Notes under the pieces: generated by a model
Database searches by the model: none
Told to the model about the DNA's origin: nothing
Seen by the model: only the letters and a program-made list of their open reading frames with translations
Shown: positions 1,078-23,547 of the stretch, in pieces
How positions within the stretch are numbered: position 1 is the first letter of the stretch
How the letters are laid out: every line of letters begins with the position of its first letter
DNA from: Kiloniellales bacterium
GTDB taxonomy: Bacteria > Pseudomonadota > Alphaproteobacteria > Kiloniellales > JAKSBE01
Reading direction: 5' to 3'
Assembly (NCBI GenBank): GCA_022361275.1
Contig: JAKSBE010000559.1
Span: forward strand, 1-37,107
DNA: 37,107 nucleotides
Translations under genes and position numbers: made by a program

Positions 1078-1106
1078 TGTTGGCGCGCGCGCCGATCTGG
1101 CTGCCT

Positions 1107-1215
1107 CGTCCTGAGCCGCGCGCAGGCGCCGCGCTTCGCGCTGAAGGGCGAGCCCCGGGTCTCGGCCGTTTCGACCTCCGGTCGAAGCTCATGCTTCGAC
1201 AGGCTCAGCATGAGG
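1107..1215 (-). repeat. Composite intergenic repeat (R3 + R2 modules), inverted relative to copies at 13701 and 15105
   Basis: cgtcctgagccgcgcgcaggcgccgcgcttcgcgctgaagggcgagcccc is the near reverse complement of 15105-15154; ctcatgcttcgacaggctcagcatgagg is the reverse complement of 15170-15198. Confidence 0.8.
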
Positions 1216-12479: not shown

Positions 12480-13180
12480 CCGGGCGACTCTACGGCCTGG
12501 GCATCGGCCCGGGCGATCCCGAGCTGATCACCCTGAAGGCATTGCGCGTCCTGCGGGGGGCCGCCGTGGTCGCCTATCCGGCGCCGGAGACGGGCGACAG
12601 CCTGGCCCGGCGCATCGCAGCGCCGCACCTGGACGGCCGCCAGGAGGAGATCGCCATCCGCATGCCGATCCACGATGCCGCCTTCCCAAAGGACGACATC
12701 TACGACGGCGCGGCGGAAAACCTGGGCCGGCAGCTGGAGGCCGGCCGCGACGTCGCCGTGCTCTGCGAGGGCGATCCCTTCTTCTACGGCTCCTTCATGT
12801 ACCTCTTCGGCCGCATGGCCGAGCGCTACCCGGTCGAGGTGGTGCCCGGCGTCTCCTCCCTGACCGCCTGCGCGGCGGCCCTCGGCGCGCCCCTGGCGGC
12901 GCGCAACGACGTCCTGACCGTGGTCCCGGCGCCGCTCGACGAGGCGGCGCTGCGGGCGCGCCTGGAGGGGGCGGAGGCGGCGGCGATCATCAAGGTCGGC
13001 CGGCACCTGCCCAAGGTGCGCCGGGTCCTGCGCGCCCTGGGCGTGCTGGAGGGTGCCCGCTACATCGAGCACGCGACCATGGCGAGCCAGCGGGTCCTGC
13101 CGCTGGCCTCGTTGCCGGACGACGCCGCGCCCTACTTCTCGATGATCCTGCTGCACCGCCGCGGGGAGGCCTGGTCGTGA
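12476..13180 (+). CDS. cobI: Precorrin-2 C20-methyltransferase
   Basis: MTGRLYGLGIGPGDPELITLKALRVLRGAAVVAYPAP, LCEGDPFFYGSFMYL, VVPGVSSLTACAAALG; ATGA overlap with cobL. Confidence 0.95.
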   Translation: MTGRLYGLGIGPGDPELITLKALRVLRGAAVVAYPAPETGDSLARRIAAPHLDGRQEEIAIRMPIHDAAFPKDDIYDGAAENLGRQLEAGRDVAVLCEGDPFFYGSFMYLFGRMAERYPVEVVPGVSSLTACAAALGAPLAARNDVLTVVPAPLDEAALRARLEGAEAAAIIKVGRHLPKVRRVLRALGVLEGARYIEHATMASQRVLPLASLPDDAAPYFSMILLHRRGEAWS

Positions 13181-15180
13181 GCGCAACCGTCTTCGTCGCG
13201 CTCACCGCGCAGGGCCTGGCCTTGGCCCGCCGGCTGCAGCCTTGTTTTCCCGGCACCGAGGTCCACGGCCGCCGCGGGCGGGCCGAGGGCGCGGACCTCC
13301 TCTTCGACGACACGGCGGCGGCGCTGCGCGCCCTCTTCGCCGAGGGCCGTCCGATCGTCGGCCTCTGCGCCGCCGGGATCCTGATCCGCGCCCTGGCGCC
13401 CTCGCTCGCCGACAAGCGGGCCGAGCCGCCGGTCATCGCCCTGGCCGAGGACGGCGGCGCGGTGGCGCCATTGCTCGGCGGGCACCACGGCGCCAACGAT
13501 CTGGCCCGGCGGATTGCCGACGCCCTCGGCATCGAAGCCGCGGTCACCACGGCCGGCGACCGTCGCTTCGGCATCGCCCTGGACGCGCCGCCGGCCGGCT
13601 GGGCGCTGGCGAACCCGGAAGACTCCAAGGCCTTCGTGGCGGCCTTGCTCGATGGTGCCCGGGTCCGGCTGCGGGTCGATGATCCGGGCCAGCCGGGAGG
13701 CCGCGCCCTTCAGCGCGAACCACGGCGCCTACGCGCGGCTCAGGACGAGGCTGAGCAGGCACGGGCCAACGAGGAGATGACGTCGTCCTCATCCCGAGCT
13801 TGTCGAGGGGCGAAGCATGACCTGAACTGGCTCTCCGCGTCGGAACTGCCGTTCGACCAGAACGGCGCCCTGGAGATCCGCGTCACCGAAAGGGCCGAGC
13901 CGGGCAGCGCCGAGCGCCTCGTCTATCATCCCGGCACGCTCGCCCTCGGCGTCGGCTGCGAGCGCGGCTGCGCGGCCGAGGAGCTGATCGCGCTCGTGCG
14001 GGATCGCCTGAAAGAATCCGGGCTCGCGCCCGCGGCCGTCGCCGCTGTCTTCTCCCTCGACCTCAAGTCGGACGAGGCGGCGGTCCACGCCCTGGCCGAA
14101 GACCTCGGTGTGCCGGCCCGCTTCTTCGACGCGGCGGCGCTGGAGGCGCAGACCCCGCGCCTGGCCAGGCCGTCGGAAGCGGTCTTCCGCGAGGTCGGGG
14201 TCCACGGCGTCGCCGAAGGCGCGGCCCTGGCCGCGGTCGGCGAGGCCGGGGCCTTGATCCTGCCCAAGGTCAAGTCGGCGCGGGCGACCTGCGCGCTGGC
14301 GAGGGCGCCGGCGCCTTTGGACCCGGACTCGATCGGCGCCGCCCAGGGCCGCTTGCTGGTGGTCGGCACCGGCCCGGGGGCGGAGGCCTGGCGCACGCCC
14401 GAGGCCGGGGCCGCGGTATCGGCGGCGAGCGATCTCGTCGGCTACCGGCTCTACCTGGACCTGCTCGGGCCTGCGGTGGCGGGCAAGACCCGCCACGACT
14501 TCGACCTGGGGCAGGAGGAGGCGCGGGTCCGCCATGCCCTGGCCCTGGCCGCCGAAGGCCGGACGGTGGCCCTGGTCTCCTCGGGCGACCCCGGGATCTA
14601 TGCCATGGCGAGCCTGGTCTTCGAGGTCCTGGAGACCTGCGAGCGGCCGGACTGGCGGCGGGTCCGGATCGAGGTCTCGCCGGGCCTCTCGGCACTCCAG
14701 GCCGCGGCGGCGCGGATCGGCGCACCCCTGGGACACGACTTCTGCACGGTCTCGCTCTCCGACCTCATGACCCCCTGGCCGGCCATCGAGAAGCGGCTGA
14801 CGGCCGCGGCCGAGGGCGACTTCGTGGTCGCGCTCTACAACCCGGTCTCGAAGCGCCGGCAACGGCAGCTGGAACGGGCAAGGGACATCCTGCTGAAGCA
14901 TCGCCCGGCCGAGACGCCGGTGGTGCTGGCGCGGCGCCTCGGCCGCCCCGGCGAAACGGTGACCGTCGTGGATCTGGCAGCCCTGACACCGGCGCAGGTC
15001 GACATGCTGACCCTGGTGCTGGTCGGCTCCTCGGCGACCCGGCGTGTGCCGCGCCGCGACGGCGGACTCTGGGTCTACACGCCGCGCGGCTACGGCGCGG
15101 GCGGGGGGCTCGCCCTTCAGCGCGAAGCGCCGCGCGTAGGCGCGGCTCAGGACGCGGCCAAGGACGCGGCCTCATGCTGA
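13177..15180 (+). CDS. cobJ: Fused CbiG (cobalt-precorrin-5A hydrolase-like) and CobJ/CbiH precorrin-3B C17-methyltransferase
   Basis: GTG start; N-term VGLCAAGILIRALAP, LLGGHHGANDLARRIADALG (CbiG), GVGCERGC (CbiG/CobE C-domain), then CobJ: VGTGPGAEAW, SSGDPGIYAMASLVFE, VVALYNPVSKRRQRQL. Confidence 0.93.
   Translation: MSATVFVALTAQGLALARRLQPCFPGTEVHGRRGRAEGADLLFDDTAAALRALFAEGRPIVGLCAAGILIRALAPSLADKRAEPPVIALAEDGGAVAPLLGGHHGANDLARRIADALGIEAAVTTAGDRRFGIALDAPPAGWALANPEDSKAFVAALLDGARVRLRVDDPGQPGGRALQREPRRLRAAQDEAEQARANEEMTSSSSRACRGAKHDLNWLSASELPFDQNGALEIRVTERAEPGSAERLVYHPGTLALGVGCERGCAAEELIALVRDRLKESGLAPAAVAAVFSLDLKSDEAAVHALAEDLGVPARFFDAAALEAQTPRLARPSEAVFREVGVHGVAEGAALAAVGEAGALILPKVKSARATCALARAPAPLDPDSIGAAQGRLLVVGTGPGAEAWRTPEAGAAVSAASDLVGYRLYLDLLGPAVAGKTRHDFDLGQEEARVRHALALAAEGRTVALVSSGDPGIYAMASLVFEVLETCERPDWRRVRIEVSPGLSALQAAAARIGAPLGHDFCTVSLSDLMTPWPAIEKRLTAAAEGDFVVALYNPVSKRRQRQLERARDILLKHRPAETPVVLARRLGRPGETVTVVDLAALTPAQVDMLTLVLVGSSATRRVPRRDGGLWVYTPRGYGAGGGLALQREAPRVGAAQDAAKDAASC
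13701..13821 (+). repeat. R3 + R2 composite repeat inside the cbiG-cobJ coding sequence
   Basis: cgcccttcagcgcgaaccacggcgcctacgcgcggctcaggacgag ... cctcatcccgagcttgtcgaggggcgaagcatgac; matches 15105-15198. Confidence 0.82.
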
Positions 15181-15198
15181 GCCTGTCGAAGCATGAGG
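15105..15198 (+). repeat. R3 + R2 composite repeat at the 3' end of cbiG-cobJ
   Basis: ggggctcgcccttcagcgcgaagcgccgcgcgtaggcgcggctcaggacg ... cctcatgctgagcctgtcgaagcatgagg. Confidence 0.85.
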
Positions 15199-20827: not shown

Positions 20828-20862
20828 CAGGCATGAACGTGTCATGAGAACTTGCCGAAGGT

Positions 20863-20939
20863 CATGCTTCGACAAGCTCAGCATGAGGAGAGGTAGTTGA
20901 AACCGCTCACCCTCACCCTGAGCCTGTCGAGGGGCGAGG
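20863..20939. repeat. Two R2-type palindromic repeats in opposite orientation upstream of cobB
   Basis: catgcttcgacaagctcagcatgagg and accctcaccctgagcctgtcgaggggcgagg. Confidence 0.7.
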
Positions 20940-22492: not shown

Positions 22493-23296
22493 ATGGGTAG
22501 GGGCTACAGCGGGCAGGCGCGTGTGCTCGCCATTGCCAACCAGAAGGGGGGCGTCGGCAAGACCACGACCGCGATCAACCTGGGTACGGCCCTCACCGCC
22601 TGCGGCCATCGCGTCCTCATCATCGACCTGGATCCCCAGGCCAACGCGACCACCGGACTCGGGATCGAGCGCAGCAAGCGCCAGACCATCTACGAGGTCC
22701 TGATCGGCCGGACGCCGGTCGAGCAGGTCGTGGTCGAGACCATCGTCCCCGGCCTCGCCCTGGTGCCCTCCTCGATCGCGCTCTCGGCCGCCGAGGTCGA
22801 GCTCTCGGCGATGTCGCGCAGCCAGTACTGCCTGCGCGACAACCTGCGCAGCCTGCTCGGCAGCTACGACGACATCATCATCGACTGTCCGCCGGCGCTC
22901 GGCTTCCTGACCGTGAACGCCCTGGTCGCGGCGAACTCGGTCCTGGTGCCCCTGCAGAGCGAGTTCTACGCCCTGGAGGGCCTCAGCCACCTGATCCGCA
23001 CCATCGACCTGATCCGCGCCAAGCTGAACGCGAGCCTGGAGCTGCAGGGCATCGTGCTGACCATGTACGACGCCCGCAACAAGCTCTCCAGCCTGGTCGA
23101 GGCCGATGCCCGCCAGCACCTGGGCGACGTGGTCTACGAGACCATCATCCCGCGCAACGTCCGCCTGTCCGAGGCGCCCTCCCACGGCAAGCCGGTGCTG
23201 CTCTACGACGACGCCTGCGTCGGCTCCCGCGCCTATCTGCACCTGGCGCAGGAGATGCTGACCCGCGACCGCCGGGTGGTGCCTGTCGCGAGCTGA
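22493..23296 (+). CDS. ParA/Soj-family ATPase (orphan, no parB adjacent)
   Basis: IANQKGGVGKTTTAINLGTALTACGHRVLIIDLDPQANATTGLG, DDIIIDCPPALGFLTVNAL, VPLQSEFYALEGLSHL. Confidence 0.93.
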   Translation: MGRGYSGQARVLAIANQKGGVGKTTTAINLGTALTACGHRVLIIDLDPQANATTGLGIERSKRQTIYEVLIGRTPVEQVVVETIVPGLALVPSSIALSAAEVELSAMSRSQYCLRDNLRSLLGSYDDIIIDCPPALGFLTVNALVAANSVLVPLQSEFYALEGLSHLIRTIDLIRAKLNASLELQGIVLTMYDARNKLSSLVEADARQHLGDVVYETIIPRNVRLSEAPSHGKPVLLYDDACVGSRAYLHLAQEMLTRDRRVVPVAS

Positions 23297-23505
23297 TACC
23301 AAGGAGCAGTGATAATGACCCATTTGATGGCGCGCTGCGGGCCGCGCCTATCCGGCGGGCCGCCGCGCGCCACCGCAGGCCGTGTTTGCTTGCCCGCCCG
23401 CGGCGTTGCGCTCCGCTTACGGTACAAAGCACCGCCGCGCGAAGCGCGCCTGGCGGACGGGCAAGCAAACCCGGTCAAATGAGTCATTATCACTGCTCCT
23501 TGGTA
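23297..23505. mobile_element. MITE-like nested palindromic element
   Basis: Left TIR 23297-23327 TACCAAGGAGCAGTGATAATGACCCATTTGA; right TIR 23475-23505 is its reverse complement with 1 mismatch; inner inverted repeat gtttgcttgcccg (23384-23396)/cgggcaagcaaac (23458-23470). Confidence 0.7.
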
Positions 23506-23547
23506 TGAGCCGCCGGGCGCGCTCCGGAGGTCACGGCAGGGCTAAAG

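Follow-up and report, generated by a model that had tools for sequence, protein, structure and literature searches.

A palindromic repeat has entered the coding sequence of a CbiG-CobJ fusion gene in a Kiloniellales bacterium, where it lies in frame within a loop repeatedly entered by unrelated classes of palindromic repeats in two orders, and where it evolves neutrally. The window, i.e., the whole stretch of 37,107 nucleotides that has been analysed, belongs to a genome termed G000 here, and two other genomes of the same genus, G001 and G002, have been compared with it. The fusion gene encodes a protein of 667 aa, in which CbiG_N, CbiG_mid, CbiG_C and TP_methylase all score above the Pfam cut-off, and the CbiG_mid match (residues 138-252) extends across the insert (Table 1). 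Structure matches of the protein have been found to CobJ (3nut), CobE (2w6k) and CbiG (3eeq), and it is presumably made full length.

Table 1. Coordinates of the fusion gene and of the repeats in the window.
Feature	Position	Strand	Basis
CbiG-CobJ fusion ORF	13177..15180	+	ORF reading, Pfam, structure matches
CbiG_N	about 13321-13560	+	Pfam
CbiG_mid	about 13588-13932	+	Pfam
CbiG_C	about 13939-14301	+	Pfam
TP_methylase/CobJ	about 14353-14985	+	Pfam
In-frame insert, REPIN-like, made of two R2-type palindromes in inverted orientation	13683..13821	+	Repeat matches, G001/G002 comparison, codon comparison
Left arm ("R3"), an R2 palindrome in which a long loop has taken the place of the short one	13699..13751	+	Repeat match; plain-loop orthologue in G002
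Module M of the left-arm loop, 24 nt, GCGCGAACCACGGCGCCTACGCGC, a copy of GCGCGAAGCGCNGCGCGTACGCGC that has diverged	13713..13736	+	Module search
Right arm ("R2"), decayed; CGA at 13795-13797 in place of the stop of the 15105 copy	13787..13821	+	Repeat and codon comparison
Second REPIN at the 3' end of the fusion gene; C-terminal tail and stop TGA 15178-15180; M in left arm at 15120-15143	15103..15197	+	Repeat match; tail absent in G001
Spacer REPIN between cobW and cobN; arm with M in its loop at 1103-1155, plain arm at about 1188-1214	1103..1214	-	Repeat match, G002 comparison
REPIN with plain loops, separating cobA from the gene that follows; REP cores at 20867-20881 and 20918-20932	20860..20937	.	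Repeat match, core search

The first-pass annotation had described a palindromic repeat in frame within this protein, and this has been borne out, as the reading frame stays open across the whole insert and the arms match the copies at both other sites: the left arm agrees with the cobW-cobN arm at 1103-1155 to 91% in inverted orientation, and 13696-13760 agrees with 15103-15167 to 80%. The same holds for its proposal that the in-frame stop of the 3' copy has been replaced by CGA in the internal one. The insert separates the N-terminal from the C-terminal domain of CbiG, as had been stated, whereas the length of about 45 added residues comes to 42 when measured against the same-genus orthologue in G001. 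The view of the insert as a composite of two repeats, R3 and R2, has kept its paired character and lost its first member as a separate repeat, since the corresponding arm in G002 is a plain R2 palindrome, CTCGCCCTTCGACAGGCTCAGGACGAG, and R3 is the R2 hairpin with a long loop. The palindrome of the window copy has decayed: its hairpin folds no better than dinucleotide shuffles (z = -0.43, and +0.4 in a second run), whereas that of G002 does (z = -4.0). An Rfam search for an RNA family has given no match.

Orthologues with and without the insert are available within the genus. That of G001, with ∼90% nucleotide identity to the window, lacks it and reads ...VRLRADRPEQDPDWL..., whereas that of G002, with ∼86% identity, carries an insert at the same site and reads ...TVDPPVQPMGLALRQAQDEAENGRDKAENPGLMLSLSKYGIDWL...; among 64 genomes of the order, the matches outside G001 and G002 jump almost directly from query residue 168 to ∼215. 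Absent from G001 and nearly all other Kiloniellales, with the same site occupied in G002, the window insert cannot be put down to chance, and a homologous linker has been looked for in the orthologues that lack the repeat, with none found. For the right arm, the frame used in the window is not that used in G002, so that an open frame has been kept and the peptide has not. As G001 seems no more distant from the window than G002 is, it may have lost the linker insert precisely; the absence of both linker and tail in G001 possibly reflects precise loss, recombination or unresolved branching, and precise loss, if it occurred, is left unexplained by simple neutral gain. The contig with the cob cluster of G001 (L297, G001:C380) has 0 R2 cores in 19.9 kb, and the linker and 3' elements are common to the window and G002.

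Lack of constraint on the inserted residues is seen in the codons. Between the window and G002, dN/dS amounts to 0.99-1.13 in the insert and 0.17-0.18 in the flanks, and in three rhizobial insert groups, two of which rest on fewer pairs with one member left out, insert and flank give 1.26 vs 0.09, 0.99 vs 0.08 and 0.62 vs 0.10; the insert thus evolves neutrally, with dN/dS about 1. In the AlphaFold model the insert stands between a strand (163-167) and a helix (217-220), and is predicted to be disordered, with a mean pLDDT of 36-62 for the blocks over residues 171-210 and mostly above 85 elsewhere; the C-terminal tail (641-667) remains under 50.

The site has been found to be a hotspot. Among 130 distinct CbiG-CobJ orthologues, insertions of at least 12 aa occur internally in 27, 24 of them at reference residue 165/166, and the different elements fall within about two codons of each other. 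Three or more classes of palindromic repeats, unrelated to each other, have supplied them in Kiloniellales and Rhizobiaceae, and they are read in several frames, the classes being R2 and two rhizobial ones defined by sequence likeness (TCTCCCC..GATGAGGGG and CCCCCTCTGNC..CATCTCCCCC). The rhizobial inserts are read, e.g., as PSPRLRGEGARRADEG..LTPTLSPQAGRG (Rhizobium terricola S-51, L145), as SPQRGEGG..LLPAGEKG (Ciceribacter), as TPLWPAGHLPHKGGE..SPPLWGRCHEVTEGG (Rhizobium rosettiformans W3, L107), and as SPLEGEMPGRAEGG..ADISPSRGES, with others besides. They are genomic repeats, with 115-147 matches per genome in six host genomes for a mixed query built from three inserts. Those carrying CCCCCTCTGGCCTGCCGGCCATCTCCCCC, a repeat found at 803 places in 179 plasmid records, are likely Rhizobium intergenic mosaic elements (RIME) or related rhizobial palindromes. 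RIME are known as intergenic, whereas in rhizobial CbiG the repeat lies in frame within the coding loop.

In a 299-genome sample of one rhizobial family, the gene has been detected in 95 (E <= 1e-100), 8 of which break at query 162-168, and breaks elsewhere in these 95 have not been seen apart from two truncated matches. The neighbouring genes of the same rhizobial loci are clean: no in-frame insertion has been found in CobL (62), CobI (63) or CobM (61), and two CobK matches that contain stops are read-through beyond the gene end. A gene tree computed with the linker columns left out requires at least 14 changes of insert type and at least 11 of presence or absence; it is a quick tree with several weak branches and does not distinguish gain from loss. 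Loop length varies also among the orthologues without inserts. Outside the hotspot, other internal insertions of 14-17 aa occur near residue 41 (L146/L351) and near residue 182 (L334).

The insert shares its family with many sites in the genus. The exact R2 core CTGAGCNTGTCGAAG is present in 76 copies in the window genome and in 67 and 34 copies in the two relatives, with 0 matches for a reversed control pattern. In the examined stretches of G000, G001 and G002, 42 of 50 neighbouring R2 pairs stand in inverted -/+ order, and 39 doublets of 47-130 bp have been counted, the units being mostly 70-130 bp; the R2 layout is that of a REPIN, with two inverted REPs and a short spacer as the repeated unit. 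REPINs were reportedly described in this form, as inverted REP doublets with a spacer, by Bertels and Rainey in 2011. The R2 repeats differ from them in that no RAYT is adjacent in the examined flanks and no GTAG tag has been seen at the hairpin base among the copies inspected. Genes with PF01797 (Y1 transposase/RAYT-like) occur in all three genomes, and a search of their flanks, as far as examined, has shown no R2-like core. One such gene of the window genome (G000:C294:4648-4974, L090) has an isolated R2 core ∼2.2 kb off on the same contig. The R2 arms read CCTC-AT..AT-GAG; of the features of CGTC-type REPs (a CGTC/TGTC/CCTC tag, a stem starting with AT, a loop of 4-5 nt and a CCA tail), tag and AT fit, and the tail does not.

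Two further copies bear on the gene cluster. Residues encoded from 15103 on, ∼20 at the C-terminus of CbiG-CobJ, derive from the second REPIN and are without counterpart in G001, and the earlier claim that this copy supplies the stop has proved correct. Between cobW and cobN, the window and G002 (L229, about 980-1095) carry the REPIN body in opposite orientations, with the module in the left arm of both. Coding-potential tests have shown 0 in-frame mid-gene copies among 53 other REP sites examined in the window genome, so that a systematic invasion of genes as in Rickettsia has not been found there. Pre-adaptation by stop-poor REPINs has been discarded, as the number of open frames is lower in REPINs than in shuffles (1.97 vs 2.58). 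At 23292-23510, the window holds inverted repeats of 36 nt, 94% complementary and with 147 nt between them, and G002 has a stretch of 92% similarity at another place. Judged from its sequence, the window element looks like a MITE of ∼220 bp.

The least explained part of the case is the module by which the loop of the left arm has been swapped. In the window arm, the GACA of the plain G002 palindrome has been replaced by A plus 24 nt, and as the net gain is 21 nt the frame has been kept. The consensus module GCGCGAAGCGCNGCGCGTACGCGC has been located at 60 non-redundant places, every one assigned to a palindromic repeat (10 R2, 20 TGTC-AT..AT-CCA REPs and 30 C-rich repeats); three of its copies lie in the window, the third at 1118-1141, and further ones in L088, L222, L235, L254 and others. 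The TGTC-AT..AT-CCA hosts fit the CGTC superfamily (PMC3733652). An orthologous pair of this type reads GGGTC-AAG-CCCGG in G001 and GGGTC-module-CCCGG in the window genome, with colinear flanks. That the module always occupies the hairpin tip holds only partly, as in the C-rich family it lies between two arms, and the sequences flanking it show strong complementarity chiefly in TGTC-type hosts. With one mismatch or none, 8, 21 and 24 copies have been counted in three genomes of the genus and 4 in a second genus of the order, with 0 in the remaining 58 genomes of the order and 0 in a 395-genome sample of the class save in the window genome; a wide distribution in Alphaproteobacteria is thus ruled out, and hardly any copies lie outside the genus. 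A literature search for the module or R2 core sequences has yielded nothing relevant. One may speculate that GCGCGAAGCGCNGCGCGTACGCGC is a mobile unit in its own right, nested in palindromic repeats and directed at them, replacing short loops by templated exchange in at least two unrelated REP families and lying inside a third, and that in this way it has added seven codons to the CbiG protein with the frame intact; we regard this as possible though rather doubtful, and its movement by templated exchange between hairpin tips is a guess. The first-pass annotation had missed both that an exchange of the loop turns R2 into R3 and that the CbiG loop is a common target of unrelated palindromes in other orders.

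Neutral tolerance of selfish palindromic repeats in a permissive loop is, in our judgement, very probably the mechanism behind the insert. A non-autonomous palindromic repeat (REPIN-like, R2 family) would have entered the loop joining the N-terminal part of CbiG to CbiG_C, probably through transposition-like copying, and would have been retained by tolerance and not by benefit, as a surface linker loop would accept almost any peptide of in-frame length. Unrelated palindromic repeats would have been captured independently by the same loop in Rhizobiaceae. Afterwards the insert would drift, with free amino-acid change, compensated frame shifts and hairpin decay, and in the genus of the window the hairpin loop could also be exchanged for the 24-nt module.

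Other readings have to be weighed against it. A hairpin that acts at the RNA level, by slowing ribosomes, stabilising the transcript or tuning CbiG versus CobJ, with the peptide being incidental, would agree with the use of one inter-domain site by different repeats, with the very stable and well-preserved hairpins of the rhizobial inserts (z mostly about -5 to -9), and with a synonymous divergence that is low in the inserts of two rhizobial groups (0.06 vs 0.21 and 0.12 vs 0.37 in the flanks), i.e., about one third of that of the flanks in L099, L101, L102 and L148 and in L107, L112, L122 and L127. These rhizobial features may reflect nucleotide-level constraint, gene conversion or recent arrival, and a nucleotide-level effect is possible there; it cannot account for the window copy, in which the hairpin has been lost. 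As the majority of orthologues are without an insert, and AlphaFold disorder and neutral drift already account for tolerance, we consider an RNA-level role unlikely. Preference of palindromic elements for a sequence or secondary structure in the DNA of this cbiG stretch would explain why different elements have inserted within about two codons, but the element classes are unrelated and their hosts divergent, no common target motif has been established, and structural permissiveness is enough given the variable loop of insert-free orthologues; such a DNA-level target seems quite unlikely.

That the insert encodes a useful linker peptide, for inter-domain flexibility or partner binding, might be read from the reading frame, which has been preserved in all cases despite indels, but the families have no peptide in common, the right arm differs in frame between the window and G002, and dN/dS is about 1, which leaves this reading very improbable. 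Least credible is an artefact of the metagenome assembly, which is indeed fragmented (615 contigs, with 9% contamination). A sequencing error that hides a split cbiG had been named beforehand as a possible cause; it is unlikely given the insert at the same site in the independently assembled G002 and purifying selection in the codons on both sides (dN/dS 0.13 and 0.18), and analogous inserts are present in the named isolates R. rosettiformans W3 and R. terricola S-51.

Protein-embedded palindromes are known mainly as a Rickettsia curiosity. RPE are palindromic repeats of ∼100-150 bp, found in frame in conserved genes as well as between genes, which are tolerated by the protein and whose repeat identity fades (PMC2229807, PMC10969869, PMC6649704). 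The cbiG insert likewise lies in frame within a conserved protein gene and is probably tolerated by the protein, so that the resemblance proposed by the first-pass annotation is sound as to kind and fails as to membership: the organism is another, the sequence family, as far as compared, is different, one gene is involved rather than many, one loop has been entered by several unrelated repeat classes, and no encoded peptide is conserved among the inserts. Palindromic elements lying in frame are well documented both for Rickettsia and for REP-carrying bacteria (PMC2229807, PMC10969869, PMC3733652). A study of REPs of the GTAG and CGTC superfamilies describes dimers inside ORFs that encode 20-30 aa (up to 82) while REPs otherwise remain mostly intergenic, places REPs at about the same site of recB in two Xanthomonas species, and proposes that insertions in linkers or loops are possibly neutral (Di Nocera et al., 2013, PMC3733652). 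The present case differs in that R2 is not cleanly of GTAG or CGTC type, that a single site has been used in two orders by three or more unrelated classes, and that a loop module common to repeat families is, in the sections consulted, not described there.

As far as the searched literature shows, what is new is that unrelated classes of repeats have come to occupy one loop again and again in two orders, their neutrality having been measured, and that a loop module is common to separate repeat families. Recurrence and the exchanged loop raise the interest of a case that is otherwise of a known kind, that of in-frame REPs. The loop module provides a directly testable exchange of sequence between hairpins without stem homology. 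The CbiG loop itself is a record of selfish DNA entering proteins, with closely related empty-site orthologues for comparison, and offers a natural series in which to measure the passage of selfish DNA into protein, the rate at which peptide and hairpin decay, and whether an insert is able to make a precise exit.
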